NCBI RefSeq assembly: GCF_009936175.1
Contig: NZ_AP019773.1
Location: 1,187,501-1,251,500, forward strand
From: Bartonella quintana
GTDB taxonomy: Bacteria; Pseudomonadota; Alphaproteobacteria; Rhizobiales; Rhizobiaceae
Length of the DNA: 64,000 nucleotides
Reading direction: 5' to 3'
Shown: positions 4,378-58,256 of the stretch, one piece after another
Position numbering within the stretch: the first letter of the stretch is position 1
Layout: every line of letters starts with the position of its first letter
Position numbers and translations under genes: made by a program
The notes under the pieces: model-generated
Databases searched by the model: none
Told to the model about the DNA's origin: nothing
What the model saw: only the letters and a program-made list of their open reading frames with translations

Positions 4378-4424
4378 CTTTGCCACACGCCCCAATTACT
4401 TTACGACCACCACAAAGGAAAAAC

Positions 4425-5558: not shown

Positions 5559-5573
5559 CTGTCAATTCTCCCA

Positions 5574-6548: not shown

Positions 6549-6572
6549 AAACAAAAGACCGGGCAATGCCCA
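6549..6572 (-). terminator. rho-independent terminator after trhO
   Basis: On the minus strand a GGGCA/TGCCC hairpin is followed by GGTCTTTTGTTTTG. It lies about 105 bp beyond the trhO stop codon. Confidence 0.6.
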
Positions 6573-6678
6573 GCCTTATAAAACACTTTTCCGCTAACAA
6601 TGAAAATTCTTTTTTCTTAACAATAAAAAAAGAAAAAACTTGAAGCCCCACAGTACGCTCGCTTGTATCACGCTTGTA

Positions 6679-7593: not shown

Positions 7594-7708
7594 AATCTTG
7601 CCATAACGCGCGTTTCATTCAATTTCAAGACCTATTCATGTGTTCTTAAGGATATTTGTGCTGACTCAGACTATACGCATCACGTCATCTTTACAGAGAA
7701 AGAACACC

Positions 7709-12141: not shown

Positions 12142-12171
12142 AAAAAGCCCACACAAAATATGTGGGCTTTT
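12142..12171 (-). terminator. terminator of the gcv operon
   Basis: A strong hairpin with arms AGCCCACA and TGTGGGCT, flanked by A-runs on one side and T-runs on the other, 24 bp beyond the gcvP stop. The symmetry would let it work in both directions. Confidence 0.8.
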
Positions 12172-12194
12172 CTCGTCAATGCAAACAAATAAAT

Positions 12195-14999
12195 TTAAGA
12201 GGTGTTTCCCAATGGTGGACAAGAACAAATGAGTACTCTGTCCCCCGCAACATTATCAATACGGGAAACAGGAGGCCAATATTTATTCGTTGGATCAAGA
12301 TGATGATTGGGAAAAGCAGCCTCCTGTCGCGAATAAGGATGTACCCAAGCATCATCTAGTGTATCCACCAATGTATGTGGTGCATTGACCAATGGATTAT
12401 CATCTTTTGGCCAAACACCTGCACCAACTTTCTCAGCTTCTTCAGCAATAGAAAGCAAAGCATCACAAAAGCGATCAATCTCTGCTTTTGGCTCTGATTC
12501 TGTTGGCTCAATCATCAAAGTCCCGGGAACTGGAAACGACATCGTCGGCGCATGGAATCCATAATCTATGAGACGTTTTGCGATATCATCAACACTTACT
12601 CCATACTGCTCTTTCAATACGCGTGTATCCACAATACATTCGTGTGCAACACGTCCATGCTTGCCCCGATACAGAATGGAATAAGCCTGTGAAAGACGCT
12701 CAGCGATATAATTGGCATTCAAAATTGCTGTTTGCGTCGCATATTTCAAGCCTTCAGCACCCATCATCCGAATATACATCCATGTAATCACAAGAATCGA
12801 TGCACTTCCATAAGGGGCTGCGGAAACCGCATGTGTTGTTCCGTTTTGTGCATGTCCTGGTAAAAATGGCTTTAGATGTTCAGCTACTCCAATCGGGCCA
12901 ACACCAGGACCACCACCACCATGGGGAATTGCAAATGTTTTATGAAGGTTCATATGACAAACATCCGCCCCAATATCTGCCGGACGAGTAAGCCCAACAA
13001 GTGCATTGAGATTAGCACCATCAAAATAAACTTGTCCTCCATTTTCATGGATAAGCGAGCAAATGTCCTTAATATTTTCCTCATAAACACCGTGTGTTGA
13101 AGGATAGGTGATCATTAAAGCGGCTAAACGATCCTTATGCAATTGTGCTTTCATTTTGAGATCATCAATATCAACATCACCATCGCTTAAGCATTTCACC
13201 ACAACAACTTCCATACCCGCCATATGGGCTGAAGCCGGATTGGTACCATGTGCTGATGCAGGAACAAGACAAAGTGTGCGTTGATTTTCCCCACGTGACT
13301 GATAATACCGGCGGATAGCCAAAAGCCCGGCATATTCACCTTGTGCACCAGAGTTTGGCTGAAAAGAAACCTGTGCAAACCCTGTAATTTCACACAACCA
13401 CGCATTTAACTGATTAATCATTTCCTGATAACCCGCCGCATCCTCTTTAGGAACAAAGGGGTGTATATTGGCTACCGTAGGCCAACTTACAGGCATCAAT
13501 TCAGCGGCCGCATTAAGCTTCATTGTACAAGAACCAAGCGGAATCATTGCCCGGTCCAATGCCAAATCCTTATCTGACAAACGACGCAAAAAGCGCATCA
13601 TGTCCGTCTCTGAATGAACCACATGAAAGAAAGGCTGTGAAAGAAAAGCGGCATCACGTCCTTTACCCCAAAGTCGTGGAGAAACCTGATCAACGAGTTG
13701 TGCCCCAAAAAGCTGTGCTAAAGTACAAGCATCCTCTTCTGTTGACAATTCATCAAAATTGACCGCAACTCTGTCATCATCAAGAATACGAACAAGGCGT
13801 CCACCTGCTTTCGCTTGGCGCGCAATCTCTTGAGCTTTTCCCTTCACAACGACGCTTACACAATCGAAAAAGGACTCTCCTTCACAAGGGATACCTGCTG
13901 CCTCTAAACCACCCATAAAACGGCATGTTAAAGAATGAATCCGCTGAGCAATTTCCTGTAAGCCTTGTGGCCCATGCCAAACAGCATAAGCTGTTGCCAT
14001 ATTTGCCAACAAAGCTTGTGCTGTACAAATGTTTGACGTTGCTTTATCGCGCCGGATATGTTGTTCACGTGTTTGCAACGCTAAACGAAAACCAACACGC
14101 CCTTTTGTATCCACTGATTGACCAACAATACGCCCTGGAATGAGACGTGTTAGCGCATCACTGACCGCAAGATAACCAGCATGTGGACCACCAAATCCCA
14201 TTGGAACTCCATAGCGCTGCATAGAGCCAACAACAATATCAGCCCCCCATTGAGCTGGCGGTTCCATAAGCGTAAGCGCCAAAGGATCAGCAACAACGAT
14301 CACCAGTGCTCCTTTTGCCTTTGCCTCTTTAATGACTTCACTGTAATCGTTAAAAAAGCCTTTTGTATCTGGCCAAGACAAAACGATCGCAGCTGTATTA
14401 GAACAAATTTCGCTATTTTCACTAATGGAAATGCCTTGTGTTTCAGCACGCGTTTGTACGACACTCAAAATTTGAGGATGCAAAAGACTCTGAAGGGAAA
14501 TTTTTGTTTTCTTTTCACGCGCAAAACGTACAGCTACCGCATTGGCTTCGGCTAAAGCTGTTGCTTCATCAAGAAGTGAAGCAGCTGCAACAGGCAAACC
14601 GGTGAGTTCACTAATCAACGTCTGAAAATAAAATAAAAGCTCTAAACGGCCTTGGCTAATTTCGGCCTGATAAGGCGTATAAGCAGTATACCAAGCTGGA
14701 TTTTCAAAAAGATTCCGCAAAATAACCGGAGGCACGCATGTTCCATGATACCCCTGCCCAATAAAACTTTTGTGCACATGATTACGCCCCATAATCTTGG
14801 AGAGTTCTTCTAGAGCTTGTCCTTCACTCACTGCCTTTGGGAGATTAAGCACCCGTCCCAAATGGATAGAGTGAGGAATAGCTTGAGAGACGAGTGTATC
14901 GATACAATCAAGTCCCAAAACATCAAGCATTTTTTGTGTTTCATCGGAACGAAGCCCAATATGCCGAGAAAAAAAAGAGCGTTCTTGCATAACACTCAT
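12195..14999 (-). CDS. gcvP: glycine dehydrogenase (decarboxylating), P-protein
   Basis: The 934-aa homodimeric-type P-protein of the glycine cleavage system. It decarboxylates glycine with PLP and passes the aminomethyl group to the lipoyl arm of GcvH. The PLP lysine is in [16 protein letters not shown] (near residue 685); [12 protein letters not shown] and [15 protein letters not shown] are other family signatures. The N-terminal half is the catalytically silent repeat. The ATG overlaps the gcvH stop in the form ATGA, showing coupled translation. It is the last gene of gcvT-gcvH-gcvP. Confidence 0.97.
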
Positions 15000-30832: not shown

Positions 30833-31114
30833 TTCAAAAGCTTGCCCAAAGATATGAAATGAAAAAAAGAGTATAGCGCAACAGGAAAACTGGTCTTAGA
30901 AAACCTAGCTTTGAGGGTGCAATTAAGTATATGGCGGATAAATCAGAGCACCTAAAGCAGAATATTTTAAGCAAGTTACACGTACACTGAAAGCCCCCAC
31001 TATCTTGAAATCCCCTAGAATAAAATCTCCCTCTTTATAAGAAAAAATATGGTGACTTTTGTTCGTGAATATCAAAAGGGTGAAGAACTTTTGAGAAATC
31101 AACGCAGATTTTAT

Positions 31115-31146
31115 AAACAAAAAAGGCAGCACACTGTGCTGCCTTT
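31115..31146 (-). terminator. terminator of the 1026-aa autotransporter
   Basis: AAAGGCAGCACA pairs with TGTGCTGCCTTT around one base; on the minus strand a T-run (TTTTTTGTTT) follows. The hairpin ends 37 bp past the stop codon. Versions of it follow the other autotransporter genes here. Confidence 0.85.
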
Positions 31147-31182
31147 AGATCAAAGTCTGTACTATATCTTATATATCTTATC

Positions 31183-34263
<3,081 letters not shown>

Positions 34264-34541: not shown

Positions 34542-35852
34542 TTCAAAAGCTTGCCCAAAGATATGAAATGAAAAAAAGAGTATAGCGCAACAGGAAAACT
34601 GGTCTTAGAAAACCTAGCTTTGAGGGTGCAATTAAGTATATGGCGGATAAATCAGCGCACCTAAAGCAGAATATTTTAAGCAAGTTACACGTACACTGAA
34701 AGCCCCCACTATCTTGAAATCCCCTAGAATAAAATCTCCCTCTTTATAAGAAAAAATATGGTGACTTTTGTTCGTGAATATCAAAAGGGTGAAGAACTTT
34801 TGAGAAATCAACGCAGATTTTATAAACAAAAAAGGCAGCACACTGTGCTGCCTTTAGATCAAAGTCTGTACTATATCTTATATATCTTATCCTAAAACTG
34901 ATAACGAAGTCCCCCCACAAAACTCGTTCCAGAAAAACCAGCCTTGCTAAGCTTATGCTGATAAACAAGATCACCATGAAGGGCAAACTTTGAAGACAAT
35001 CGAGCATTAAAACCTAATCCAGCTTCTAAAGAAGAACCAAAAGCACCTAATTGGAAAGCATCTTTGAAATGGACTGATTGCTTTCCATCAAATCCATGCG
35101 CAAGGTAAAACTTACTATAGAAGGAAACAACACGTGCCTCATCGGTTACAGGAAAGGTCTTTGTTAAACGGCCACCCACACGCATCGCCCATTGATCAAG
35201 TTTTCCAAGCTCAATCTCAAAGTTGTCAATATCACGGGCCGGATTAATCCGGAGATGCTGATAAACAACCTGGACTTGGGGATCAAAAACAAATCCTTCA
35301 TATCCAGTTGCAAATGACTGACCACCTGTCAATGAAACACTGAGCGGATTTCCCTTTAATGTTGCCGTCTTGCCACGTGCAAGAGTCAGGACATCACCCT
35401 TAAACAAACCATAAGAGAGAAGACCATCCACATAAAAGCCGGCATCATACTGCATGGTACCATAGGCTGTCACTGACCATTTATCAAATGCGCTTTTTTG
35501 GCTTTGTTCAACAGCTAAAGGCTGCAAAGAAAGTCTCTCATAAGCCCCTATAACTCCAAAAAATGTGTTACTATAAGCATTCTCGATTGTTTTGAGCAAA
35601 ACACCTGCCTCAAGTGCATTATAACCAAGCTCCCCTCCGTAACCATATTCAAGGGCGGAAAGATTTGAGGAATAACGGTAATGACCAGCATAGCCACGCA
35701 AGAATAAAGCAGGGTTTTCATGAATTCTTGGCATTCCACCAGAAGTGGCCCGCAGTCTCTCCAAATGCTTATTTTGGTTGCTAATATTCACCAAACCAGC
35801 ATGGAATAAGCTATTTGGTAACAGCAAATAAGTCGGAACTTGCGGAACAACA
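34542..35852. repeat. 1.31-kb direct repeat, copy 2 (autotransporter 3' block)
   Basis: Second copy of the block at 30,833-32,143, covering the beta-domain of the 1911-aa autotransporter, its terminator and downstream DNA. Outside the block the two genes differ clearly. Confidence 0.95.
34824..34855 (-). terminator. terminator of the 1911-aa autotransporter
   Basis: Identical to the hairpin at 31,115-31,146, with the same 37-bp distance from the stop codon, since it lies inside the duplicated block. Confidence 0.85.
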
Positions 35853-38800
35853 GATCTTACAGCCTGTTCAGGAAATCTATTTTTAGAAACCGTAGAAGTA
35901 TACGCAGAATCACTTACTTCAACATATTGATTTTCTAGACGGAAATTCCAAAATTCCCCACCATCCTTCATAAATCTTTCATCAACATGGTCTTTAGTTG
36001 AAGTGGCTTTTGGAGCGTAAGAACGAAGAGTATATTTGTAAGGGGAATCCTCTAGCGCGACATAATCACCATTCAGTTGGAAAGAATCTTTCTCCGCTTT
36101 TCCATAAACCTGAATAATAGAAACACTATGCGCTATTTTATCGCTAGGGTTGTTTTCTCCCACACTTCCCGAAACGCCTTTTACATGCACTACAGTTTTT
36201 CCAGAGACATCACCATGAATTAAGAGACGGTCGGTCACTTGAGCATCACTCGAATCATTAGGATTCAGACGTGCATTGAAATAAATATGTGCATTACCTT
36301 GCGCATTATAAACAGCCCCCACGCCTTTTCCGATACGAAGTGTCTGATAACTATCAGCTGTATTGGATTCTGGTTTTTCAAAAGAAAGAGAACTATTAAT
36401 AAGATTTAGCGCTGAAATTGATGAATCACCTAAAGAGCCCAATTCTTGCAATTTCTCATGTTTCGGCCGCAATAAAGACCATTTTGAATTATTTGTTAAT
36501 CCCAATTTGGCAGTAGAATTTTCATCAACACGAGCTCCCCCTGCAATAACAGAGTCATCCACCCAAACCAATATATTAGAGTTATTTTCAGATTTTAATA
36601 ATAAATCTCCAGAGAGAAATGTTTTCTTTTGTATAGAAACAAGACCACCAGAATTATTACCATAAATAGCTACACTCTTTGGAACTTCGAAATTAGTTTT
36701 TTTCAATAAAGCTGTACCCGTTATACCTACAAGTGTTTGCTCTGGTGAAAATACAGAACTTCCATTTACAGGATGTCCCACTGACTCTGATACAATTTCC
36801 TCTGAGACCCTATTCTGATTCCGCTCAGCGACTCGTGCCATCCCATTAAAATATATACCGTAGGAACTATCACCTTCCACTTTAATATTAGAAGAGTCGA
36901 TATAAGCGCGATTCATAGAAGGAGCAACGTCAGAAGATCTTCTTCTCCTGGAAGCACCCGTCTCAACGGAACCATTAACATCCATAAACCACAAACCAGT
37001 GGCATCAGTAACAACATTCCCATTAGTAAAATCAACAGAGCCACGATCGCTCAACAAAAAAGCTGCACGTCCAGGTACTTCTGTAGAAGCTGACTCTATT
37101 TGTCCTTTTTTTGCAGTAATGTTAACTTTGTCTAATTTAACATTTCCCCCCAACTCTGACCTGACAGCTATTCCATCCGTAAGAGTAATAGTCCCAGAGC
37201 TCATGGTTATCTCACCGCCATTACTCGCCAAACCAGCCATAGCTTGTGATTTCATGCTAATATCTGTAGTATCCAATTGAACAGATGAACCAGCCCCCAC
37301 AAAAACACCTGCATAATCAGCATTGATCGTCCCATTAGTCATTTTGACTTTTCCACCACTTTGAGCCTCAAGCCCAATTTGGGAAGATTGAATAGTTGAT
37401 TCCTTATTCAAAACAATTTCTGCATCTTTTTCTGCAAGCACAGCACTCACAGGCCGTAATGTATTAAGATCAATTTGATTCTTACTATCAGAAGAAACCG
37501 CACCAATAATAACCACATTCTCCATCTTAAGGTTTGTCTTCTCTCCTACACTTACAGAATGCTGACTGCTATCACTTACTCTCAGTGTAGCACCACTTAT
37601 TGTATGTGATTTTCCATCACTGCACGAATAAGAAGTATGCTCACTCCCTGTAACATCTCTTCTCACTCTCCCTATACTTCCCGTATAATCACACGTAGGA
37701 GAAACAGCTCGTCCACCAACATTTGCAAAAGTAGATACATCAGATCCCCTAGTTACAGGAGATGTCTCAGATGCAGCAGAGAGAACAGGTTGCACAGGAG
37801 AAGTAGTCGAAGGCGCAATGGGTAATGTTTCAGATCTCGCAGATGTGGTAAGTAGAACCCGTCCTCTCGGTCCAGAACTCTGAATTACAGTAGGAACAGT
37901 ATCAGGTGCCTTGGAGGAAGGATTAGACTCTACATTTTCAGATAGAGAAGCCCCAGATGTAACTATAGATTCACCACTAGGCGTTTCACTATACTCTGCT
38001 ACAACAGTTTTTCCATCAGGTCCTATAATAACATAATCAACAACATCAGAAGCCTCTCCAGATCCCAAAAGTGATTCAGAATTCTCGGATGAATCAAAGT
38101 CCTCAGAATCTAAAGGATTTAAAGAAACTAACGTATTAATATCACTATCTTCTTCTTCAGATCTCGCTAATGAAGTAGGTTGAGGAGTTCTTAACTCAGA
38201 AGTCTCAGATATGGTCGAAGCAACAGGAATGGCTTGAGCTCCATCAGAATCTAAAGAATTTGACAAAATTGACGTACTAACACCACTATCTCCTTCAGAT
38301 CTCGCTAATAAAGTTTCAGATACGGGGGAAACAACAGAAATAGTTTGAGCTCCACCTGTCATAACAGGAATCCCTTCACTTTGTGCACCTGCAGAAGCTA
38401 AAACCACAGACTGACTCTCTAAACGGTAATCCCAAAACTGTGTATTCGTTTGCTTCAATTTAGGATCGAAAAACATCGAGGCTGAACCCGAAGAAGATTC
38501 TTGATGAGAATTTGGACCATAAGCACGAAGAGTGTATTGATAAGGTGCACTATTTAACGTAACATACCCACTATCCAGCTGGAAAGAATTTTCCCTTGCA
38601 CTTCCATAAACTTGAATAATCGAAACACTGTTAGGTTGATCCACCTTTTCTGATGAGGTGCTATCTGAAACAGAATGCACGTGCACGAAAGTTGTTCCAG
38701 AAACATCGCCATGAATTAAAAGTCTATCAGAGATTTGAACACTATCCGCATCGCTAGACATCAGATCTGCATTAAAGTAAATGCTAGAACGCCCATGAGC

Positions 38801-40627
38801 ACTATAAACCGTGCCCTTTCCATTTCCAATGCGCAGGGTTCGATACTTATTATTACCGCGACCTTTTTCACCATGTTTACTTGTTTCACTCTCTTCACTT
38901 TCTGAAGAAAGAAAAAATCTAATATTACTATTTACAAGTCTCATAGATGAAATACATGAATCTATACAATCCGCATCTGAATTTCCAAAATCGCTGCTAT
39001 ATACACTCTTCGTTAAATGCCACTCTGACCCACCGGATAAAAAAAGCCTAGCATGAGAATTTTCATCAATGCGAGCAGCACCTGCGATTACAGAGTCATG
39101 AACAAAAACTGACAGATCGGAACCAGCTTCAGCTTTTAACAACAAACCACCCGAAAGAGTTGATTCGTCTTTCACAATGACGTAACCACCAAAATTATCA
39201 CCATAAATGGCCACACCATCTGGAACTCTGAGACGACTATTTTTCAAAAGAACCGTACGTATTCCACCTTCATAACTGTCATTGCTTTCTTTAACACCAT
39301 CACTGTATCCAGCAGAAAGGCCATCTCCTCTAGCCAAATTTAACATATTTTCTGAATCTGAACTACGAAAATATATACCATAAGATCTTTTACCGTTGAC
39401 CTTAACAACTGAAGATTTGACACTGGCGCTCAAATCTAAAACATCAAGGCCCCCTTCATGGTTCGCAGCCTTTAAAACTTCTGTAACGTCATGCCCAAAA
39501 GAAGCAATATCATTGAGAATGGCAGGATCGACCTGAACAAAGAAGATGCCGTTATCCTCATCATTCTCATCAACATGAGAATTAAGATGGTAAACACCAT
39601 CTAGTCCACCCACTTCGGCTCTGACTGAACGTTCAGTACGTTGAGTTCCTTCTTCATCTTCTTCTTCATCTCCACTTATATTAGTGAAAAGATCTAAATC
39701 TGTTTCAATACTTTCACTGAGAGTATTCTGGAAATTTTTATCAACCAACAGCACAGCAGCATCGGAAATATTGATATTGCCATTATTAAAGGAAATAGCA
39801 CCTCCACTCGATAATAAAACGTAACGGTCAGGCTCAATATAAGAATCTATAGCTCCTTCTCCTCTTCCTTGACTCAACTTAGCAAGGCGAGAGAACATAG
39901 TAACATCAACTCCGTTCAATTGAACAAATCCCATATCTGTCGACATAACCCCTATCCCATCACCGCTAAAATCAATCGACCCAGATCGCATTATTATTGA
40001 AGATTTATCATTGCTCACCAGACCGATTCCAATGACTTCAATATCCACGCCATCCAAAACAATAGACGATTCCGAATTAGCCACCCCCCCTATATAAGTT
40101 TCTGTAATAGATCCACCTTTCATACTGATCTTTCCCTGTTCTTCACTTCGAAGCCCATAAAAAAAACCTTCAATATGTGATTTCTCCAAATTAATCGCTG
40201 TACCACCTGTATAGCCATTATCTGAAAATACAGCACCTCCTGAAATACCAAAAGTAACTATACTATCCATATCTGTAGAATCAGAACGACCAGCAGAATC
40301 ACTAGAAGCTGTATCGTCCACCCCAAAATCAATCGATACTTCTTTCACACTAATAACTGCCCCTCCCTCTGCATGTACAGCATAGTCATTATATTTTTTC
40401 GCTTTAATACTACCTCCTGTTATTGCGAGTGGACTACTGCCATTAGTGCCATCACACAAAACAGGAGCTCTTTGCTGCTTATCACTAACCTCAGCTTTAC
40501 ACTCATAGGTAGATGACGCCTTAGGAGAACTAGCATTCCCCACAGAAATATCCACACCTTGTAAAAAGAAGAGAACGCTTGTTGTAAGAGCATATAAATG
40601 GGTACGATTTTTAAATACGTTAATCAT
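34892..40627 (-). CDS. giant autotransporter with two passenger units, 1911 aa
   Basis: A type Va autotransporter, about twice the usual size. Residues 1-31 are a signal peptide (MINVFKNR leader). Passenger unit 1 spans about 32-735: it opens with a Cys pair (YECKAEV and PVLCDG) and ends with the pre-barrel signature SFQLDSGYVTLN, YTLRAYGP, FWDYRLESQ. A Ser/Glu/Thr-rich linker (about 742-985) contains repeats of the kind SETS and ARSE. Passenger unit 2 (about 990-1565) again opens with a Cys pair (CDYTG and YSCSDGKSH) and ends SFQLNGDYVAL, YTLRSYAP, FWNFRLENQ. One barrel (about 1592-1911) follows. Both units contain KSYGIYFRS or SSYGIYFNG and LLIHGDVSG motifs. This looks like a fusion of two autotransporter genes that lost the inner barrel. 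It is divergent from the iron importer. Confidence 0.9.
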   Translation of the reverse strand: MINVFKNRTHLYALTTSVLFFLQGVDISVGNASSPKASSTYECKAEVSDKQQRAPVLCDGTNGSSPLAITGGSIKAKKYNDYAVHAEGGAVISVKEVSIDFGVDDTASSDSAGRSDSTDMDSIVTFGISGGAVFSDNGYTGGTAINLEKSHIEGFFYGLRSEEQGKISMKGGSITETYIGGVANSESSIVLDGVDIEVIGIGLVSNDKSSIIMRSGSIDFSGDGIGVMSTDMGFVQLNGVDVTMFSRLAKLSQGRGEGAIDSYIEPDRYVLLSSGGAISFNNGNINISDAAVLLVDKNFQNTLSESIETDLDLFTNISGDEEEDEEGTQRTERSVRAEVGGLDGVYHLNSHVDENDEDNGIFFVQVDPAILNDIASFGHDVTEVLKAANHEGGLDVLDLSASVKSSVVKVNGKRSYGIYFRSSDSENMLNLARGDGLSAGYSDGVKESNDSYEGGIRTVLLKNSRLRVPDGVAIYGDNFGGYVIVKDESTLSGGLLLKAEAGSDLSVFVHDSVIAGAARIDENSHARLFLSGGSEWHLTKSVYSSDFGNSDADCIDSCISSMRLVNSNIRFFLSSESEESETSKHGEKGRGNNKYRTLRIGNGKGTVYSAHGRSSIYFNADLMSSDADSVQISDRLLIHGDVSGTTFVHVHSVSDSTSSEKVDQPNSVSIIQVYGSARENSFQLDSGYVTLNSAPYQYTLRAYGPNSHQESSSGSASMFFDPKLKQTNTQFWDYRLESQSVVLASAGAQSEGIPVMTGGAQTISVVSPVSETLLARSEGDSGVSTSILSNSLDSDGAQAIPVASTISETSELRTPQPTSLARSEEEDSDINTLVSLNPLDSEDFDSSENSESLLGSGEASDVVDYVIIGPDGKTVVAEYSETPSGESIVTSGASLSENVESNPSSKAPDTVPTVIQSSGPRGRVLLTTSARSETLPIAPSTTSPVQPVLSAASETSPVTRGSDVSTFANVGGRAVSPTCDYTGSIGRVRRDVTGSEHTSYSCSDGKSHTISGATLRVSDSSQHSVSVGEKTNLKMENVVIIGAVSSDSKNQIDLNTLRPVSAVLAEKDAEIVLNKESTIQSSQIGLEAQSGGKVKMTNGTINADYAGVFVGAGSSVQLDTTDISMKSQAMAGLASNGGEITMSSGTITLTDGIAVRSELGGNVKLDKVNITAKKGQIESASTEVPGRAAFLLSDRGSVDFTNGNVVTDATGLWFMDVNGSVETGASRRRRSSDVAPSMNRAYIDSSNIKVEGDSSYGIYFNGMARVAERNQNRVSEEIVSESVGHPVNGSSVFSPEQTLVGITGTALLKKTNFEVPKSVAIYGNNSGGLVSIQKKTFLSGDLLLKSENNSNILVWVDDSVIAGGARVDENSTAKLGLTNNSKWSLLRPKHEKLQELGSLGDSSISALNLINSSLSFEKPESNTADSYQTLRIGKGVGAVYNAQGNAHIYFNARLNPNDSSDAQVTDRLLIHGDVSGKTVVHVKGVSGSVGENNPSDKIAHSVSIIQVYGKAEKDSFQLNGDYVALEDSPYKYTLRSYAPKATSTKDHVDERFMKDGGEFWNFRLENQYVEVSDSAYTSTVSKNRFPEQAVRSVVPQVPTYLLLPNSLFHAGLVNISNQNKHLERLRATSGGMPRIHENPALFLRGYAGHYRYSSNLSALEYGYGGELGYNALEAGVLLKTIENAYSNTFFGVIGAYERLSLQPLAVEQSQKSAFDKWSVTAYGTMQYDAGFYVDGLLSYGLFKGDVLTLARGKTATLKGNPLSVSLTGGQSFATGYEGFVFDPQVQVVYQHLRINPARDIDNFEIELGKLDQWAMRVGGRLTKTFPVTDEARVVSFYSKFYLAHGFDGKQSVHFKDAFQLGAFGSSLEAGLGFNARLSSKFALHGDLVYQHKLSKAGFSGTSFVGGLRYQF

Positions 40628-40847: not shown

Positions 40848-41783
40848 ATGATGATCAAATATCTGAAATGGGTAACTTCTGTCTTGGTTGTTGCAATTAA
40901 CTTTGCGACATTTTCGTGGGCAAATGTGAATGCAGAAAATGTGATCATTAATCATGTTTCAGGCACCACCACTGTTCCTATCTCTCCTCAAAAAGTTATT
41001 GTATTTGACCTTGCATCGCTTGATAATATGAACCGCCTTGGAATCAAAGCAATTGTCGGTGTTCCTGAAGGAAAAAAACCTGCTTATTTGCAACAATTTG
41101 ATGATGCAAAATATGAAAAAATTGGCACCCTTTTTGAACCGAATTATGAAAAAATTGCCACCCTTCAACCTGACCTCATTATTATTTCATCACGGACTCA
41201 AGCTAAATATAAAGATTTATCCAAAATCGCTCCAACCATTGACCTTACAATAGGAAATCAGAACTCTCTTAAAGATATTATACGTAATGTGTCTATTTTT
41301 GGGAAAATTTTTGGTAAAGAAAAGGAAGCCGAGGAAGAAATTGCGGAACTTAACGAAAATTTAGCAGAAGTTCGTAAGAATATTCAAGGAAAGGGCACAG
41401 GGCTTATACTTATGACCTCTGGTGGAAAGATAAGTGCTTTAGGTCCCCAGTCACGTTTTGATATTTTGCATTCCGCATTCGGCATTGCTCCTGCAACCGA
41501 TAAACTAATCGTGCAAAAACATGGACAACCTATTTCCCCTGAATTTATTCTCGAGACCAATCCTGATTGGCTATTGGTCATCGACCGAGATGCAGCAATT
41601 GGACGAGAAGGACAATCCGCAGCACAACTCCTTAATAATGAACTTGTTCAACGTACAATAGCTGGAAAGCAAAACCAAATTATTTATCTAGACTCTTGGA
41701 GTTGGTATCGAGCTAGTGGTGGTCTAACTGGGCTTAACGAAACAGTTCAACAACTTAATAAAGCCTTTACAACAAGCAAATAA
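40848..41783 (+). CDS. siderophore/iron ABC transporter substrate-binding protein
   Basis: A periplasmic binding protein of 311 aa of the FatB/YclQ-like class for ferric siderophores. Residues 1-28 form a signal peptide (VLVVAINFATFSWA). The TroA-type fold is indicated by VIVFDLASLDNMNRLGI, YEKIATLQPDLIIIS and PDWLLVIDRDAAIG. No lipobox Cys is visible, so it is probably soluble in the periplasm. AGAGGA eight bases before ATG 40848 supports the start. It leads the importer operon; the siderophore is unknown. Confidence 0.88.
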   Translation: MMIKYLKWVTSVLVVAINFATFSWANVNAENVIINHVSGTTTVPISPQKVIVFDLASLDNMNRLGIKAIVGVPEGKKPAYLQQFDDAKYEKIGTLFEPNYEKIATLQPDLIIISSRTQAKYKDLSKIAPTIDLTIGNQNSLKDIIRNVSIFGKIFGKEKEAEEEIAELNENLAEVRKNIQGKGTGLILMTSGGKISALGPQSRFDILHSAFGIAPATDKLIVQKHGQPISPEFILETNPDWLLVIDRDAAIGREGQSAAQLLNNELVQRTIAGKQNQIIYLDSWSWYRASGGLTGLNETVQQLNKAFTTSK

Positions 41784-49423: not shown

Positions 49424-52400
49424 ATGTCTAAAAAATCTCTTTTATCATACACAACCACAGTAGCCATAATAGTGTTCAGTACCCACTTCAACGCATATGC
49501 TAAATCTTTTTCTGCTGATAAAGGAGAAAATAAAATTGCTCTACCCCAAGAAAGCTACAAAAATATTTATGCATTCGACGGTGGTAAAATTTATGGCAAG
49601 GATCTCAAGATAACCGGTCTCCCAATAAAAGAAGGATCAATCATAAAAGACATAAGCGGTGCAAAAGCCGAAAACCCTGGAAGCATGATTGAATTAGAAG
49701 GAGATACAACAATAAAAAACGTTGCGATCGGTCTATGGGCAAAAGAAAGCGGTACGATTAAAATGACCGATGGTTCTATTCACGTAAAAAAGCTGAATAT
49801 ACAAACGCCAATTGGCATAGAAGCTAAGTCAAATGGTGCCATTGCGTTATATAATGTAAAGATTAAAGCAAGCAATCAAGACCAAAGCACAAAAACAATG
49901 AATGAAATAGGAGATGGAACGGGAGCAAGCTTAAAGAATGGGGGAACATTGAAAATGATTGGAGGCTCCATTAAAGCCAATCACTTAGGCGTTGCTTTAG
50001 AAGAAAGCAATAGTGATAAAAATGAGTTAAAAAATGTAACAATTGACCTCATGGATCTCACAAATACCGCAACAGAGAGCATAGGAATAAGCGCCATTAA
50101 AACAAGTAAAATTGTTTTAAAAAATGTAACAGTTAAGCATGCAAGAACCAGCATATATGCAAGTGATAATTCTCAAATAACAATATCTGGGGGCTCAATT
50201 CAAGGAAATCATACAGGAATAAATGTTGAAAAAGAGAGTGTCATAACTCTAAAAGATAATGTTGAAGTTTTATCGAATGGCCATGGACTTTCTGCAAACG
50301 GTCTGCAATCAAAAATTACTATGATAGGAGGAACACTTAACACAGCCGGTTTACAACCTGCAGTCTTAGCGGGGTCTGGAGGACAGATCAATCTTACCGA
50401 TGTTGTTGTGCACACTGATGATAATGGAACACAAATGCAAGAACTAGAGATGAAAGATGCACTCTTAACAACGCAAGGTTTACAGGCACAATATATGCAA
50501 TCAAAAATCACCATGATAAGAGGGTCTATTACCACAACTGGTTTGAATCCTGCAGTCTTAGCGGGATCTGGCGGGAAAATTGATCTTACCGATGTTTCTA
50601 TGAATGCATATAATGTTGGACTACAAGCCCAAGGTGAACAGTCGAAAATTGTCATGAAAAAAGGAGCACTTACCACAACTGGTCTACAACCTGCAGTCTT
50701 AGCGGGATCTGGAGGACAGATTCATCTCGCTGATGTTTCTATAAAAACCAATGATATTGGGCTCCAAGCACAAAATGATCAGTCGAAAATCATCATGAAA
50801 AGAGGAACACTTATCAAAACCGGACCACGATCTGCTCTCTTTGCAACACGCGGCGGACAAATTAGTTTGCTGAGTGCTCAAGTCCATACTGACAGCGTAG
50901 GACTGGCAATACGAGGAAAACAATCAAAGATCACACTCAAAGATTCGAAGGTCCTTGCCAATATTGTATTAGTAGGGAGACCCAATGAAGGTGATCCTGG
51001 CGAAGCTAACGTAATTGCAGATCATTCTCTCTTAGAAGGCGGAGCAAGAAATTCCAAAAAGAATCCCACCCAAACAATCTTTAGTTTGATTAACGGCACA
51101 ACATGGTATTTAAAGGCGAGCACAAAAAACGATATTAGACACCAAGCTGATTTGATTAAAAAATTACATTCTGAAGTTTTTATGCTTAATCTCAACAACA
51201 GTACTATTGTTTTTAAGAAACCAAGAGAAGATCATTACCAAACATTACATATAAGCAGTCAAACACCTAACATCATAAACGATAACACAACAAACAAAAC
51301 AGTCTACACTGCGACAGGTGATGCAAGGATTTATTTTAATACTGAATGGAGTAATGGTTTGCCAAAAGACCAACAAAAAACAGACCGTCTTCTTGTTCAT
51401 GGCGATGTATCAGGGAGCACAACAGTTCATTTCAGTAACCTTTCAAAAAATGAGCCATCAAATATAGAGAACACCATCCCTTTGAATATGCGTGGTGTTT
51501 CACTCGTTCAAGTTTCTGGAAAAGCAAATGAAAATGCATTCAAATTAGCAAATGGTTATGCCACAATAGGCGGTTTGCCTTATAAATATACACTGAATGC
51601 CTATGGACCAACATCCAGCCATGGCAAAGCGAGTCTTGAGCAAAGCCTCGTGGGAGAAGAGCAGAATTTTTGGGATTTCCGCTTGCAAAGTGCCACTCTT
51701 GATCGTGAGGAAAAAATCAAAGCTCTTGTGCCACAAGTAGCAAGCTATTTGGTGATGCCCAACGCTTTATTCTCCGCTGGATTCACTGATGTAAACAATC
51801 AAAATGCATTGTTAAACGATATGCAAACAGCACTGTTTGCACCAGAAAGCCATAAAAAGAGTGGGATCTTCTTATCCTCCTATGGCAATAAGATCACATT
51901 ATCTTCTAACCGTAATCCACTACAATATGGTTATGGTGCTGATGTCCAGCATACTGCATTGCAAGCAGGCATTGCACTGGCAGGATTAGAAAAGCAAAAC
52001 ATTACCACAAGTCTTGGACTTTTGGGGACATACGGAAAGCTAGCTTTTACCCCTAAGGATATCGAAGGCGCTGAGAAAAGCACCATTGATAAATGGTCAT
52101 TCACCGTATACGGCAACATCCAGCATAACAATGGCATATATCTCGATACGCTTTTTTCTTATGGAACTCTCAAGGGAAATATCACCACCGCCTTCATCGG
52201 AACTACCACGCAACTGAATAAGACAAAAACATTGAGTGCATCTGCCACCGTTAGCCAAAAATTGGGAACCGGTGTTGAGGGGTTGGTCTTTGAACCACAA
52301 GCACAGTTTGTTTATCAGCGTCTCATGTTTGAAAAACTCTCAGATATTGATGGCTTTGAAGTAAATATGGGCAAGCCTCATCAATGGCTGGTACGTGTTG

Positions 52401-52684
52401 GCGGACGTTTGATACAAACTGTAATGCCTGTTGAAAGAAACCGTGCTGTTTCCTTCTATGGTAAAGTGAATTTCATCAAAGCTTTTAGTGATAATGGTAC
52501 GATAAAGATTGGTGATACTTTCCATCGTGATTCTATGGGATCTTCCCTTGAAGGCGGTTTTGGTGTGAATGCTCAACTCTCTCAGAATATCGCCCTTCAT
52601 GCTGATGTTAATTACCAACACAAGCTCCAAAAAGCTGGCATATCTGCAATTAACTTTTCCGGTGGAATACACTATGGCTTTTAA
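49424..52684 (+). CDS. autotransporter (type Va), 1086 aa, with 47-aa passenger repeats
   Basis: Residues 1-26 are a signal peptide (LLSYTTTVAIIVFSTHFNAYA). The passenger (about 27-750) is beta-helix-like; between about residues 295 and 505 a unit of about 47 residues recurs, with the pattern QSKI-x-M-x-x-G, TGL-x-PAVLAGSGGQI and LTDV. The pre-barrel signature is FKLANGYATIGG, YTLNAYGP, FWDFRLQS. The barrel spans about 765-1086, starts VPQVASYLVMPNALFSAGF and ends GGIHYGF. From residue 625 on it is virtually identical to the 767-aa protein. AGGAT about nine bases before the ATG supports the start. It is a probable surface adhesin. Confidence 0.9.
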   Translation: MSKKSLLSYTTTVAIIVFSTHFNAYAKSFSADKGENKIALPQESYKNIYAFDGGKIYGKDLKITGLPIKEGSIIKDISGAKAENPGSMIELEGDTTIKNVAIGLWAKESGTIKMTDGSIHVKKLNIQTPIGIEAKSNGAIALYNVKIKASNQDQSTKTMNEIGDGTGASLKNGGTLKMIGGSIKANHLGVALEESNSDKNELKNVTIDLMDLTNTATESIGISAIKTSKIVLKNVTVKHARTSIYASDNSQITISGGSIQGNHTGINVEKESVITLKDNVEVLSNGHGLSANGLQSKITMIGGTLNTAGLQPAVLAGSGGQINLTDVVVHTDDNGTQMQELEMKDALLTTQGLQAQYMQSKITMIRGSITTTGLNPAVLAGSGGKIDLTDVSMNAYNVGLQAQGEQSKIVMKKGALTTTGLQPAVLAGSGGQIHLADVSIKTNDIGLQAQNDQSKIIMKRGTLIKTGPRSALFATRGGQISLLSAQVHTDSVGLAIRGKQSKITLKDSKVLANIVLVGRPNEGDPGEANVIADHSLLEGGARNSKKNPTQTIFSLINGTTWYLKASTKNDIRHQADLIKKLHSEVFMLNLNNSTIVFKKPREDHYQTLHISSQTPNIINDNTTNKTVYTATGDARIYFNTEWSNGLPKDQQKTDRLLVHGDVSGSTTVHFSNLSKNEPSNIENTIPLNMRGVSLVQVSGKANENAFKLANGYATIGGLPYKYTLNAYGPTSSHGKASLEQSLVGEEQNFWDFRLQSATLDREEKIKALVPQVASYLVMPNALFSAGFTDVNNQNALLNDMQTALFAPESHKKSGIFLSSYGNKITLSSNRNPLQYGYGADVQHTALQAGIALAGLEKQNITTSLGLLGTYGKLAFTPKDIEGAEKSTIDKWSFTVYGNIQHNNGIYLDTLFSYGTLKGNITTAFIGTTTQLNKTKTLSASATVSQKLGTGVEGLVFEPQAQFVYQRLMFEKLSDIDGFEVNMGKPHQWLVRVGGRLIQTVMPVERNRAVSFYGKVNFIKAFSDNGTIKIGDTFHRDSMGSSLEGGFGVNAQLSQNIALHADVNYQHKLQKAGISAINFSGGIHYGF

Positions 52685-52893
52685 AAAAGGCAGCACATTG
52701 TGCTGCCTTTTGTATATATGAAACCTGTTTTTCTTTCCCTCTCAAAGAACCTCTTCACCCTTTTCACCCCCGGGACATATGACAGAGCACCTCTTTGCAA
52801 AGCTCATCCAACCAGATCCAAAACAATAAGGTATTGCACCACAAATTGGTGCAAAATAACCATCCAGTAAAACAAAGAGAAAAAATATAGGAA
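51298..52893. repeat. 1.60-kb direct repeat, copy 1
   Basis: Matches 56,661-58,256 at a constant offset of 5,363 bp; I noticed two mismatches (near 51,312 and 52,813). It spans the end of the passenger, the barrel, the terminator and 180 bp of noncoding DNA. Confidence 0.95.
52685..52711 (+). terminator. terminator of the 1086-aa autotransporter
   Basis: AAAAGGCAGCACA pairs with TGTGCTGCCTTTT around one base, starting directly after the stop codon. Confidence 0.85.
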
Positions 52894-53269: not shown

Positions 53270-55584
53270 GTGTCTAAAATCCCTTTTCTCATGGACATTT
53301 GTTGCAGCAATTATACTGTTTGACGCCCATATCAGTGCATGTGCTGAAAAACTTGAAATTTTTGGAGAAACAAAAGAAGTATCTGACACAACTTATGAGA
53401 TTATTTATGCTAAAGACAGTGGAAAAATCACCGGTAAGCATTTAACGATAATCGGGAATGAAGAGACAAACCACCCCCCCAAAGAGCATGAAGCGAATAT
53501 TTTTGCTGCTGTAACAGCTGATAGCCTTGTTAGTGTGATTACTTTATTAGAACATACAGTTATTTATAGCGGATAAACGAATTCTCCGATTAATGTAGCA
53601 CTTATCACAGAGAATGGTGGATCAATCTGTTTCCAAAGGCTGTATTGCAGCTACATTTGCTGCTATTTTCGATACCACCAATGATAAAGGAATCAGCCTG
53701 ACAAATGTGAAAATATAGTGAAAATAGCAATACAAGCCAACAAAGGCCAAGTTACTTTGAAAGATGTAACCATATAATAAAGCAGAAACCAGCATTGTTA
53801 CACAATCTGATTCTCAAGTAATAATATCCGGAGGATCCTTTGATGGAAAAATGTTCGCTCTCAACAGCAGTACTATTACTTTAAATAACAAGCTTACGTA
53901 ACATCTTCTAATGGTGATAGACTATATCCAGATGGCTTAAATTCCACGATTACCATGACGGGAGGAAGCGTAATAGGGGAAACAACATGCATTGTTAGCA
54001 GAAAACAGCGGACAGATTCACGCCATAAATGTTGTTCTCACTACAAAAGATGGTAAGGCAATCGGTGCAATTACATTTGACTCTGGCAGCATGATTAAAC
54101 TGCATGGAACGATAACGATTAACAATACTTTTGACGATCTTGGAACAAGAGAAGATGAAAAATTGTCAGTGAAGATTTAACAATAATCGGTTCTGAAACT
54201 AAAATTTTGATCCTGAAAACGAAAAAAATGGAGTATAGACCGAGAACCCTGGTATTGAAATTCAGTCAAAGAGTAAAACATTGATGTTGGTATTTCTAAA
54301 GTCAATAGAACACAATTAAGATGGTCAATGGCACTCTTGATGAAAATTCAAAACCCACAGATTTCGATATCGAATCTAAAGTACTACAGAGTATAATGGG
54401 AAATAAAATAGAAGCAAACAAAATTGCATTGTTATCGGTAGCGGACAGCAGGTAGGCATATTAATCTAATGGATGTTTCTGCTACAGCTGGGGTTTCTGG
54501 CTTGCAATTTATGAGTTTATCTACTACTGATTCAGCTAAACTACAAAAGCATCGAAACAATGAAATCAATTTGACCAATACAAAGCTACTGGAAAATGGC
54601 ACCAGAATTCTCCTTGCAGTTCTTGCTAAAAAACGTTGAAAATGTTACAAATTTATCAATCGGTACAATCAATCTTAACAATTCAGAAACCCGCGCTGGT
54701 GTCTTATTAGGAGACAGAGAAGGTGTTTTGGGGGGATAAGTTAGCAACACACCCTGAGAAACAGAACGCTTTCTTCCTCTCCATCTATGAAGACAGCAAG
54801 CTTATCATCTACCCATGGTCCTCTCCGACATGGGTTATGGCGCTGATATTTGCTATGCTGTTGGACAAGCAAGTGACACATTAGCCCCTCTAGAAAACCA
54901 AAATTTCACCATGCATTGGGGACTTATAGGAACCTATGAGCGACACTGCTTCACCCCAAAGCACATGGAGGATGCCGACCCAATAAACGGGTCCTCACAG
55001 CTTACAGAAGTCTAAAACATAATAATAATGGGTTATCTGTCAATATCTTCACATCCCATCCTGTGGTATGCTAAACAAAGATCTTACCACTGCCCTCATC
55101 AAAAGTACTGCAAAATTGAATGATACAAAAACATTTAGCGCTTCGGCCACCGTTAACAACAATTTGCCAAAGGTATGGTCAGGGACAGAGTTTGAACCAC
55201 AAGCACAGCTTGTGTATCAACAATTGTCATTTGATACCCTTTCAGATGCCGATAACTTAGAAATCGATATGAAAAATCCTCACCAATGGTTAGCGCGAAT
55301 TAGCGGACATTTAAACAAAACTGTTTCCGCTGAAAGCAACCATTCCTTTTCCTTCTATGGAAAAGTGAATCTCCTCAAAACTTTTGGCGATGATAAAAAA
55401 ATACAAATTGGCCGATGACTTTTCCCCTGATCCTGCAGAAACTTTCACTGAAGGCGAGTTTGGTATCAATGCGCAATATCTCAAAATTTCCAATATTATG
55501 ATTCATGGTGATACTCTGTTGACATCTTATCAAAATAAGTTTTCTGAAATCCTTTTTTCCACTAGTCTGCATTATCGTTTTTAA
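53270..55584 (+). pseudogene. autotransporter, decayed, full-length remnant
   Basis: It opens with a GTG and a frameshifted signal peptide similar to that at 47,353. Recognisable passenger phrases recur in several frames (GGQIHAINVVLTTKDGKAIG and FDSGSMIKLHGTITI). Barrel remains begin around 54,810 (DMGYGADICYAVGQASDTL), continue with SASATVNNNLPKVWSGTEFEPQAQ and end SLHYRF at 55,584. Many stops and frameshifts make it inactive. Confidence 0.85.
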
Positions 55585-55743
55585 AGATTTTCTGAAGCAA
55601 ATTTTTAAAGTATAAAAGAACTCTGCATAAAAACTCATTTTGATATTTACAATAAAAACATAATGATATAATAGCCTTCTTGGTACGTGCACCATCAAGG
55701 ATGATGGAGTATGCATGAAGGATATATCAATATAGGGTGTACT

Positions 55744-58047
55744 ATGTATAAGAGAAATTTTTTATTATGTACAATTGCTGGATCTTTGATTTTCTCCTAT
55801 TTAAGTTCGGCTTATGCAAATACACCACCTCGTGAAATTCCCAAGGTTTATGTAAAAGAGGGAGAAGAGACTTTTAATAACGTTGTTATCCGCGATAGAT
55901 ATAATCCAGTGATCGCTGGTGGATCACAATCAGTCGCCACAATTACAGAAGCGATAATAGCCTCAGAAATTGTAGGGTTGAGTGCAACGAGAGGTGGGCG
56001 CATTAATGCTACAGAAATTGATACAAAAACCCTGATAAAAGGTTTAGAAATTACAAACGGTATAATCAATCTTGAAGATTCAATCGTACATGTCAAAGGA
56101 AATCATGAAAGCTATGGTATTGTTTTTGGAAAGGTCTTTGATTTCCATGTAAATAAAGGCGAAGAAGTTGTTAATAAGGCATTTCTTACCAATACAAAAC
56201 TTCTTGTGAGAGACGGCATAGGTATTCTGGGACCGTACTCAAATGCTGAGATTAGACTTAAAAATTCAGAAATTCTTTCTGATATGTTATTGAAAAATAG
56301 CGATGAAACAGAGATTGATCCTGTCACTCTTACATTAACTGCTGACCATTCAATTTTGGAAGGAAGAGCAAAAACATTACAAAAGAACACAACAGTTTTT
56401 ACTCTGAGCAATAACAGTAAGTGGTACTTAAAGATTAGTCAAAACGAAGTAGATAATAGTAGTAGTCTATTTAACTACGTCCTCCTTGACATTAATAAAC
56501 GAGCACATTCTAGTGTTTCAGTCCTTAATCTTAACGATAGCGCCATCGTGTTTAATGCGCCAACTGTGTTGACGGAGGGCCATTATCAAACCTTGAGTGT
56601 AGGACGAGAGCAAACGGCTGAATATTCTGACCCACAGAGCAATAGGGACCTTAATGAAAAAACAGTCTACACTGTGACAGGTGATGCAAGGATTTATTTT
56701 AATACTGAATGGAGTAATGGTTTGCCAAAAGACCAACAAAAAACAGACCGTCTTCTTGTTCATGGCGATGTATCAGGGAGCACAACAGTTCATTTCAGTA
56801 ACCTTTCAAAAAATGAGCCATCAAATATAGAGAACACCATCCCTTTGAATATGCGTGGTGTTTCACTCGTTCAAGTTTCTGGAAAAGCAAATGAAAATGC
56901 ATTCAAATTAGCAAATGGTTATGCCACAATAGGCGGTTTGCCTTATAAATATACACTGAATGCCTATGGACCAACATCCAGCCATGGCAAAGCGAGTCTT
57001 GAGCAAAGCCTCGTGGGAGAAGAGCAGAATTTTTGGGATTTCCGCTTGCAAAGTGCCACTCTTGATCGTGAGGAAAAAATCAAAGCTCTTGTGCCACAAG
57101 TAGCAAGCTATTTGGTGATGCCCAACGCTTTATTCTCCGCTGGATTCACTGATGTAAACAATCAAAATGCATTGTTAAACGATATGCAAACAGCACTGTT
57201 TGCACCAGAAAGCCATAAAAAGAGTGGGATCTTCTTATCCTCCTATGGCAATAAGATCACATTATCTTCTAACCGTAATCCACTACAATATGGTTATGGT
57301 GCTGATGTCCAGCATACTGCATTGCAAGCAGGCATTGCACTGGCAGGATTAGAAAAGCAAAACATTACCACAAGTCTTGGACTTTTGGGGACATACGGAA
57401 AGCTAGCTTTTACCCCTAAGGATATCGAAGGCGCTGAGAAAAGCACCATTGATAAATGGTCATTCACCGTATACGGCAACATCCAGCATAACAATGGCAT
57501 ATATCTCGATACGCTTTTTTCTTATGGAACTCTCAAGGGAAATATCACCACCGCCTTCATCGGAACTACCACGCAACTGAATAAGACAAAAACATTGAGT
57601 GCATCTGCCACCGTTAGCCAAAAATTGGGAACCGGTGTTGAGGGGTTGGTCTTTGAACCACAAGCACAGTTTGTTTATCAGCGTCTCATGTTTGAAAAAC
57701 TCTCAGATATTGATGGCTTTGAAGTAAATATGGGCAAGCCTCATCAATGGCTGGTACGTGTTGGCGGACGTTTGATACAAACTGTAATGCCTGTTGAAAG
57801 AAACCGTGCTGTTTCCTTCTATGGTAAAGTGAATTTCATCAAAGCTTTTAGTGATAATGGTACGATAAAGATTGGTGATACTTTCCATCGTGATTCTATG
57901 GGATCTTCCCTTGAAGGCGGTTTTGGTGTGAATGCTCAACTCTCTCAGAATATCGCCCTTCATGCTGATGTTAATTACCAACACAAGCTCCAAAAAGCTG
58001 GCATATCTGCAATTAACTTTTCCGGTGGAATACACTATGGCTTTTAA
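55744..58047 (+). CDS. autotransporter (type Va), short passenger, 767 aa
   Basis: Residues 1-25 are a signal peptide (FLLCTIAGSLIFSYLSSAYA). The unique passenger part is only about 300 residues, with SYGIVFGKVFDFHVNKGEE, a degenerate version of the 'SYGIYF' motif of its relatives. From residue 306 on it is virtually identical to the 1086-aa protein, including barrel and terminal GGIHYGF. I set the start at ATG 55744, which begins the signal peptide; ATG 55711 would add 11 residues before it. It is likely a passenger variant created by recombination at the shared block. Confidence 0.88.
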   Translation: MYKRNFLLCTIAGSLIFSYLSSAYANTPPREIPKVYVKEGEETFNNVVIRDRYNPVIAGGSQSVATITEAIIASEIVGLSATRGGRINATEIDTKTLIKGLEITNGIINLEDSIVHVKGNHESYGIVFGKVFDFHVNKGEEVVNKAFLTNTKLLVRDGIGILGPYSNAEIRLKNSEILSDMLLKNSDETEIDPVTLTLTADHSILEGRAKTLQKNTTVFTLSNNSKWYLKISQNEVDNSSSLFNYVLLDINKRAHSSVSVLNLNDSAIVFNAPTVLTEGHYQTLSVGREQTAEYSDPQSNRDLNEKTVYTVTGDARIYFNTEWSNGLPKDQQKTDRLLVHGDVSGSTTVHFSNLSKNEPSNIENTIPLNMRGVSLVQVSGKANENAFKLANGYATIGGLPYKYTLNAYGPTSSHGKASLEQSLVGEEQNFWDFRLQSATLDREEKIKALVPQVASYLVMPNALFSAGFTDVNNQNALLNDMQTALFAPESHKKSGIFLSSYGNKITLSSNRNPLQYGYGADVQHTALQAGIALAGLEKQNITTSLGLLGTYGKLAFTPKDIEGAEKSTIDKWSFTVYGNIQHNNGIYLDTLFSYGTLKGNITTAFIGTTTQLNKTKTLSASATVSQKLGTGVEGLVFEPQAQFVYQRLMFEKLSDIDGFEVNMGKPHQWLVRVGGRLIQTVMPVERNRAVSFYGKVNFIKAFSDNGTIKIGDTFHRDSMGSSLEGGFGVNAQLSQNIALHADVNYQHKLQKAGISAINFSGGIHYGF

Positions 58048-58256
58048 AAAAGGCAGCACATTGTGCTGCCTTTTGTATATATGAAACCTGTTTTTCTTTC
58101 CCTCTCAAAGAACCTCTTCACCCTTTTCACCCCCGGGACATATGACAGAGCACCTCTTTGCAAAGCTCATCCAACAAGATCCAAAACAATAAGGTATTGC
58201 ACCACAAATTGGTGCAAAATAACCATCCAGTAAAACAAAGAGAAAAAATATAGGAA
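56661..58256. repeat. 1.60-kb direct repeat, copy 2
   Basis: Second copy of the block at 51,298-52,893. The 5' junction lies inside coding sequence (just before the YTVTGDARIYFNTEW motif). Confidence 0.95.
58048..58074 (+). terminator. terminator of the 767-aa autotransporter
   Basis: The same hairpin as at 52,685-52,711, directly after the stop codon. Confidence 0.85.

Follow-up and report, generated by a model that had tools for sequence, protein, structure and literature searches.

Two serial passenger units on a single barrel in a probable CFA autotransporter of Bartonella quintana

The gene at 34892..40627 on the minus strand of a 64,000 nucleotide stretch of the Bartonella quintana genome (contig NZ_AP019773.1; the whole stretch is called the window below) is a single open reading frame (ORF) of 1911 codons, and its 1911 amino acid (aa) product consists of two homologous passenger units on one beta-barrel, with an autochaperone region in both units. 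The protein is a type Va autotransporter and most probably the B. quintana counterpart of CFA, a protective antigen already described. We consider it probable that it represents a CFA-type autotransporter with two beta-helical units in series, in which a conserved inner unit and barrel carry an exchangeable, hypervariable head. Genomes are cited below by G numbers (the window's own is G000) and loci by L numbers.

Two passenger units on one barrel

An earlier note on this DNA, made from the sequence alone, had described a full series of passenger landmarks occurring twice, and all of the named motifs were found in both units in the same order: SYGIYF at residues 415 and 1255, LLIHGDVSG at 636 and 1468, SFQL at 681 and 1515, YTLR at 698 and 1532, and FWxxRLE at 731 and 1559 (unit 1 and unit 2, respectively). 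Cys 43 and Cys 58 in unit 1 correspond to Cys 979 and Cys 1002 in unit 2, and Cys 58, Cys 979 and Cys 1002 are invariant in alignments of 25 and 22 rows. The two halves align significantly, residues 1-760 against 961-1600 giving E 3e-76 and 31% identity over 710 columns with composition statistics and the low-complexity filter off, and E 4.7e-71 at default settings. Beta-helical passengers are repetitive, and one long ordinary passenger with the usual beta-helix repetition was therefore considered; it is refuted by a repeat that includes the autochaperone region and by landmarks that recur in order, and we give it next to no credence.

Pfam AC_1 (PF18883) matches two stretches of the protein and the barrel occurs only at residues 1586-1911, which bears out the proposal of two passengers on a single barrel with a linker where an inner barrel would be. 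TIGR01414 (NCBIfam) covers residues 1441-1911 at 4.8e-30, as expected of the C-terminal beta-barrel of a type Va protein. PF03797 was not listed for the 1911 aa protein, yet it scored 3.8e-21 on the neighbouring autotransporter at 31183-34263, whose barrel DNA is nearly identical, and the missing listing is taken as a filter effect of the long protein. Comparison of the linker with the barrel revealed no barrel remnant (best E 3.5), and hydropathy of residues 900-1000 gave no strongly hydrophobic stretch, hence no signal-peptide remnant before unit 2.

Refined borders place unit 1 at about residues 32-744, the linker at 745-975 and unit 2 at about 976-1572, with all parts encoded on the minus strand. 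The putative N-terminal export signal region (residues 1-31, 40535..40627) has, by hydropathy, a hydrophobic stretch at about 11-25 and 87-94% identity across three B. quintana strains. It is followed by the N-terminal beta-helix of unit 1 (residues 32-404, 39416..40534), the hypervariable distal head as judged by identity comparisons and an AlphaFold model. The autochaperone-type regions of unit 1 (residues 405-744, 38396..39415) and unit 2 (residues 1245-1572, 35912..36895) were both delimited with Pfam AC_1 and a profile built during the analysis. Between the units lies the linker (37703..38395), rich in Ser, Val, Thr and Glu and predicted to be disordered. The N-terminal beta-helix of unit 2 (residues 976-1244, 36896..37702; profile and AlphaFold model) holds a furin-type site, R1227-R1230 (36938..36949), followed by Ser-Ser within a low-confidence loop (residues 1219-1236). 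The beta-barrel translocator (residues 1586-1911, 34895..35872) was recognized with a hidden Markov model built for this work and with TIGR01414.

AlphaFold models were built for residues 28-755 and 560-1600, and a beta-helix was predicted in each passenger unit with a disordered stretch between them. The unit 1 model (predicted local distance difference test, pLDDT, 71; predicted template modelling score, pTM, 0.77) had pertactin as its top PDB match (E 4.5e-8, TM 0.49 on the query). In the second model a confident helix runs from about residue 999 and pertactin was again first (E 1.2e-6); the modest quality of that model (pLDDT 64, pTM 0.56) speaks against leaning heavily on it. All but 2 of residues 741-996, between the units, have pLDDT under 50, as does the loop at 1219-1236, which is flanked by confident strands. 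By sequence, the protein had no match to solved structures at 0.01. With two AC_1 stretches, the models and pertactin as top match, the beta-helical passenger and autochaperone of a type Va autotransporter are both present.

Pertactin, Ag43 and UpaB have an autochaperone and a C-terminal barrel, with one passenger unit and one autochaperone each. The 1911 aa protein shares the beta-helix passenger with them according to fold matches, pertactin being best for both models, and differs in having two units and two autochaperones. One passenger per barrel is common among type Va proteins without defining them, and the present protein departs from this layout by carrying two full units. Within the literature accessible to the analysis, neither two passenger domains nor an inducible autotransporter in Bartonella turned up in any publication.

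Relation to CFA and BafA

In the excerpts of the cited papers that were available, to which all statements on published work here are limited, CFA is the CAMP-like factor autotransporter of Bartonella (Litwin and Johnson 2005; Siewert et al. 2022, cited in PMC10288214, PMC10936683), a hypervariable protective antigen found widely in the genus (PMC10288214, PMC10936683). The reviews report CAMP-like cohemolytic activity, and one of the two states that CFA is needed for erythrocyte infection by B. taylorii (PMC10288214, PMC10936683). It is also described as a hypervariable target of neutralising antibodies, the mechanism of variation being called unclear (PMC10936683). The 1911 aa protein is likewise an autotransporter of the genus Bartonella with a hypervariable exposed region and wide occurrence in the genus. 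In B. quintana, BQ10290 and BQ10280 are adjacent CAMP-like factor autotransporter homologues (PMC3595295), and a table in that paper lists 22.3-fold for BQ10280 and only 1.27-fold for BQ10290. From gene order and similarity we infer that BQ10290 is the gene at 34892..40627.

BafA is also a Bartonella type Va autotransporter with a pertactin-like passenger, but differs in that its passenger is single, of about 490 residues, released and angiogenic (PMC7366657). A single-unit gene at G000:C1:747 kb, possibly BafA (a putative label), fell outside the unit 1 and unit 2 groups in the careful tree described below.

Distribution in Bartonella

The gene at 40848..41783 (plus strand), a divergent neighbour arranged head to head with the two-unit gene, served as synteny anchor; we take it to be FatB-like, presumably with an iron-siderophore role. 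Matches were present in 58 of 71 Bartonella genomes and absent from 13. An intact two-unit gene with barrel occurs in 37 of the 71, and in every case its neighbour is the FatB-like gene (in G023 this neighbour is broken). Three genomes (G011, G035, G030) carry the two-unit gene in split form, with the break inside unit 1 or after it; the ORF pieces were treated separately. Its frames are broken in G038. Eight genomes have a one-autochaperone gene near FatB (G012, G037, G029, G040, G006, G047, G007, G008), and in G002 passenger and barrel are in separate ORFs. The gene is cut by a contig end in G046 and gave a weak match only in G063. No such gene was seen beside FatB in five genomes (G036, G041, G042, G015 and G010, the last judged from the AC_1 list as the fetched stretch ends at FatB). 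In G067 (L079:4360-7872) a passenger of the unit 1 clade sits directly on a barrel at the FatB place and unit 2 is missing. Unit 2 is therefore dispensable there and unit 1 does not always need it, a point against the two-unit model proposed below.

The 30 named FatB loci comprise 25 with an intact two-unit gene, two split (L087, L103), one with broken frames (L099) and two with a single unit (L104, B. melophagi; L105, Bartonella sp. WD12.1). L084 and L085, within the 25, are two copies from one assembly. The closest full-length homologues are from B. quintana (77 and 74% identity), and others carry the names B. henselae and B. taylorii, the B. taylorii 8TBB locus (L095) lying beside FatB. Across the wider order, any AC_1 match was found in 57 of 297 genomes, and two listed matches in one frame occurred only in the window's genome; four further frames had weak neighbouring AC_1 matches.

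Several arrangements at these loci were recorded in passing. Split two-unit genes at L066, L068 and L127, and at the named L087 and L103, leave a head without its own barrel. Phase variation by simple repeats was considered for the split genes and rejected from L068, the one locus searched for this, where the repeats listed near the overlap (9056-9492) flank it and none lies inside. In G002 (L115) passenger and barrel ORFs with a four-base overlap come in two consecutive pairs, 2927-8173 with 1866-2930 and 9391-14400 with 8330-9394, as though a single autotransporter were divided between two reading frames. At L045:13507-19899 the FatB-like gene and the gene following it are present twice beside the two-unit gene.

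Origin of the two-unit gene

The earlier note read the protein as a fusion of two neighbouring autotransporter genes with loss of the inner barrel. The absence of an inner barrel agrees with that reading; as a recent, local event, however, the fusion is ruled out by the wide distribution of the two-unit gene in the genus. The presence of the double architecture in 37 of 71 genomes, together with a single clade of first units spanning species (support 100/99), marks it as an old, inherited trait. Several other Bartonella have a single-unit gene near FatB, which makes a simpler ancestor likely. The fusion account is thus partly right, with an event older than first thought.

On the trees, the joining of two genes and the doubling of one passenger are both plausible. 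In the careful tree (57 rows hand-chosen from 178 units, with the window gene at 49424 left out for its long branch) the second units are nearly one clade, and units 1 and 2 are joined with support of 92/99. L119, L129 (G038, broken frames) and L130 (a duplicate of G023) were left out of the trees. This grouping, and the single-unit gene at the same place in G012, G037, G029 and G040, would be accounted for if the passenger was duplicated within a single gene ahead of the diversification of the two-unit clade; we give such a duplication an even chance. Against it, the support lies below the starred level and drops to 84/91 after removal of one odd row, the unit 2 of G001, and gene conversion among the array genes blurs the signal.

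The fast tree disagrees with the careful tree on the placement of unit 1: FastTree with all 178 units sets unit 1 apart and puts unit 2 beside some third-gene passengers (0.825). This would suit a fusion in which two neighbouring autotransporter genes were joined and the upstream barrel was lost, and a clade of unit 2 with third-gene passengers was not rejected (approximately unbiased test, p 0.196 and 0.232). A recent fusion of this sort exists in G064, where the second two-unit gene (L053:11993-17308) consists of a third-gene-type passenger joined to a copy of linker, unit 2 and barrel instead of the usual barrel, the copied stretch matching the upstream two-unit gene at 99.1% identity across 3366 bp. 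However, the careful tree unites the two units even without the odd row, the linker lacks any barrel trace, and four relatives show only one autotransporter gene beside FatB within the 14 kb fetched. Fusion remains plausible at somewhat less than an even chance.

A variable head exchanged between species

Among the three B. quintana strains identity is 55-63% in the N-terminal part of unit 1 and 73-77% in its autochaperone, 81-87% in the N-terminal part of unit 2 and 90-94% in its autochaperone, and 98-99% in the barrel. Within species (22 pairs, 8 species) this order of conservation never falls in 17 pairs; in the other five, all B. taylorii, it is broken by 1-2 points inside unit 2. Some of the B. 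taylorii pairs are paralogous two-unit genes and not alleles, and in the B. henselae pair the N-terminal part of the head aligned over only 38%. The protein thus has, within species, the hypervariable exposed region known of CFA.

In 10 of 12 species pairs unit 1 has a higher synonymous divergence (dS, 0.48-1.35) than the barrel (0.14-0.47), which suggests that the heads are older than the genes carrying them. The same high values weigh against selection as the sole source of head diversity, as old alleles or alignment noise would also contribute. In a few pairs the head is, on the comparison of silent changes, the younger part of the gene. L110 (Bartonella sp. AU18XJBT) and L101 (B. vinsonii subsp. 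vinsonii) have 80% aa identity with 6% synonymous change in unit 1 and 76% with 4% in the linker, against synonymous change of 28% in unit 2, 21% in the barrel and 23% in FatB. Other tested relatives share the inner parts and not the head (L110 with L107, 43%, and with L090, 36%; L101 with L096, 42%).

Exchange cases were picked from a scan of all 703 pairs of 38 rows, which included the doubtful double of G046. Sliding windows placed the breakpoint a short way past unit 1 in two pairs, G021/G039 and G018/G028; in G053/G069, a pair with the same figures as L110/L101, it fell near the beginning of unit 2. For the two parts of unit 1 the ratio of nonsynonymous to synonymous change (dN/dS) was 0.81 and 1.49 in G021/G039, whose N-terminal part includes an unshared start, and 1.40 and 0.97 in G018/G028. 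Much protein change against few silent changes in the shared blocks suggests diversifying selection. These comparisons show unit 1 to be a head cassette that has moved between species, with breakpoints in or near the linker. A head cassette with mapped breakpoints and a conserved furin-type loop were not found in the literature searched, outside which the original CFA papers lie.

A furin-type loop in unit 2

Before the second autochaperone region the window sequence reads S-R-R-R-R-S-S. R-x-[R/K]-R is the furin pattern, a strict Arg at P4 with a free P3 being furin-type. When sought from -130 to +30 of the start of the second autochaperone, the motif was present in 90 of 94 two-unit homologues. 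It was also present in 37 of 38 two-unit genes of the genome set (which counts the second such gene of G064) and in 24 of 25 of the named set; G046 was removed before these motif counts of homologues and genome set and before the count of intact genes in 71 genomes. Position 2 among the 90 is R in 60, K in 17, T in 6, Q in 2, S in 2, and I, G and M in one each. An alignment made independently of the pattern (n=94) has Arg at the first position in 91, R or K at the third in 90 and Arg at the fourth in 90, with 3 gaps. Among representatives under 65% identity the motif occurs in 23 of 25, against 1.8 expected by shuffling (maximum 6); this test searched the whole region, and the match printed for the window row is another motif, close to where unit 2 begins. 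This additional R-x-R-R, at residues 987-990 just inside unit 2, is kept in one of two other B. quintana strains. The conserved G-R-x-L-L before unit 2 was also considered as a cleavage site and dropped, being present in only 15 of 39 rows (the 39 include G046).

Before the first autochaperone the motif is found in 6 of 94. Raw counts in the single-unit lists were 2 of 26 and 2 of 91. The list of 26 includes three fragments starting in two-unit linkers (P0086 and P0087 with the site, P0088 without it) and the unit-1 type P0098, and in the list of 91 are G067 and three unit-2 halves from split genes (site present in G011 and G030, absent in G035). Among genuine single-unit relatives the motif count is 0 of 109 (22 + 87; the two sets may share genes). 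Because the contrast with true single-unit genes stands, our estimate for the site is unchanged by this recount.

The loop has the features of a furin substrate, with R-x-[R/K]-R followed by a small residue in a flexible loop whose exposure is suggested by its low model confidence. A host furin-type convertase may cut it, freeing or loosening the head, a prediction that we place short of evens. Several observations pull the other way. Of the four two-unit homologues without the motif, two have R-R-R-K or R-R-A-R in its place, and the other two have R-x-[R/K]-R elsewhere in the protein. The site is missing from the unit-2 copies of the G050 two-unit gene, the G035 split gene and the partial protein P0088, and in G035 the basic run is absent from the loop. 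The polybasic loop could instead bind heparin-like glycans. A loop that stays uncut, as a structural element or a basic patch binding heparin, sialic acid or lipid, is accordingly a tentative but substantial alternative; the basic residue (R or K) that most sequences have at each of the four positions, and the few losses of the site, would fit it. A charge patch, however, need not keep Arg at positions 1 and 4 and R or K at position 3, and here position 2 takes R, K, T, Q, S, I, G or M where the other three hardly vary.

Cleavage by a bacterial protease has a precedent in IcsA of Shigella, whose passenger is cut at a basic (dibasic) site near the autochaperone by the bacterial omptin IcsP. The position of the basic site near an autochaperone is alike in the two proteins. 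They differ in that neither omptins (PF01278) nor S8 subtilisin/kexin proteases (PF00082) were found in the window's genome, both searches giving detections in control genomes. Three trypsin-fold proteins, in frames of 468-508 aa and presumably HtrA-like by length, are encoded there and could be candidates, but the strict Arg at P4 with a free P3 is furin-type, and we consider bacterial cleavage of the loop unlikely. A literature search on Bartonella autotransporters and furin found, in the excerpts available, a furin passage only for a virus.

Proposed model and significance

By analogy with known autotransporters, the barrel would export the chain C-end first. The inner autochaperone would fold the inner helix, and the outer autochaperone would then fold the outer head independently. 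If the second autochaperone does fold the head on its own, diverse heads could be exchanged without disturbing export or refitting the inner unit. A host furin-type convertase would cut the inner unit at its R-x-[R/K]-R|S loop, and the cut would release or loosen roughly residues 32-1230 (head, linker and first part of the inner unit), leaving a stub on the cell. A fuller version, in which CFA is a host-protease-gated protein that is both shed and swapped, with freed head and linker acting as antibody decoy or soluble ligand and cassettes traded among strains and species through the linker, seems to us rather doubtful. R-x-[R/K]-R at a C-terminus binds neuropilin-1 on endothelium, and a freed fragment ending in this motif might, if the fuller version is true, also be a receptor ligand.

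The two-unit anatomy offers a testable answer to how CFA varies: recombination would replace a head cassette that folds by itself and is delimited by a disordered linker. At the host interface, the furin-type loop contributes a further step open to test. It also directs attention to the inner unit, the better conserved of the two, as the portion with the least freedom to vary, and this is useful for understanding immunity. Together, an outer head that varies and is swapped between strains and an inner signal, usually kept, that seems fitted to a host protease suggest a way in which the bacterium might alter or discard its surface coat. With its two autochaperone regions, this natural protein would also serve well for testing how autotransporter passengers fold.

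Recombination in the surrounding array

The adjacent gene at 31183..34263 (minus strand) encodes a single-unit autotransporter of 1026 aa. A tract at 34542..35852 (minus strand, 1311 bp), which takes in barrel and downstream DNA of the two-unit gene, has one mismatch with 30833-32143, the barrel and downstream DNA of this neighbour. The passengers of the two genes differ despite the near-identical barrel DNA, and the identity of the tracts is probably due to recent gene conversion. As a general rule barrel homogenisation was rejected: the barrel is closer to another gene of its own genome than to any two-unit gene elsewhere in only 4 of 36 genomes (G023, among the 36, had no second barrel to compare).

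A second converted pair lies in the window at 51296-52893 and 56659-58256, where the genes 49424-52684 and 55711-58047 have 1.6 kb in common with two mismatches, spanning part of the autochaperone region and the barrel. Barrel fragments at G000:C1:1242559-1242900 (window 55059-55400), 745892-746392 and 1137542-1138001, the last two with internal stops, appear to be relics of autotransporter genes that have been lost. Between passenger and barrel of the neighbour at 31183..34263, a tandem repeat with 12-base spacing (32182-32247) encodes a Pro-Glu run that is possibly a length-variable spacer.

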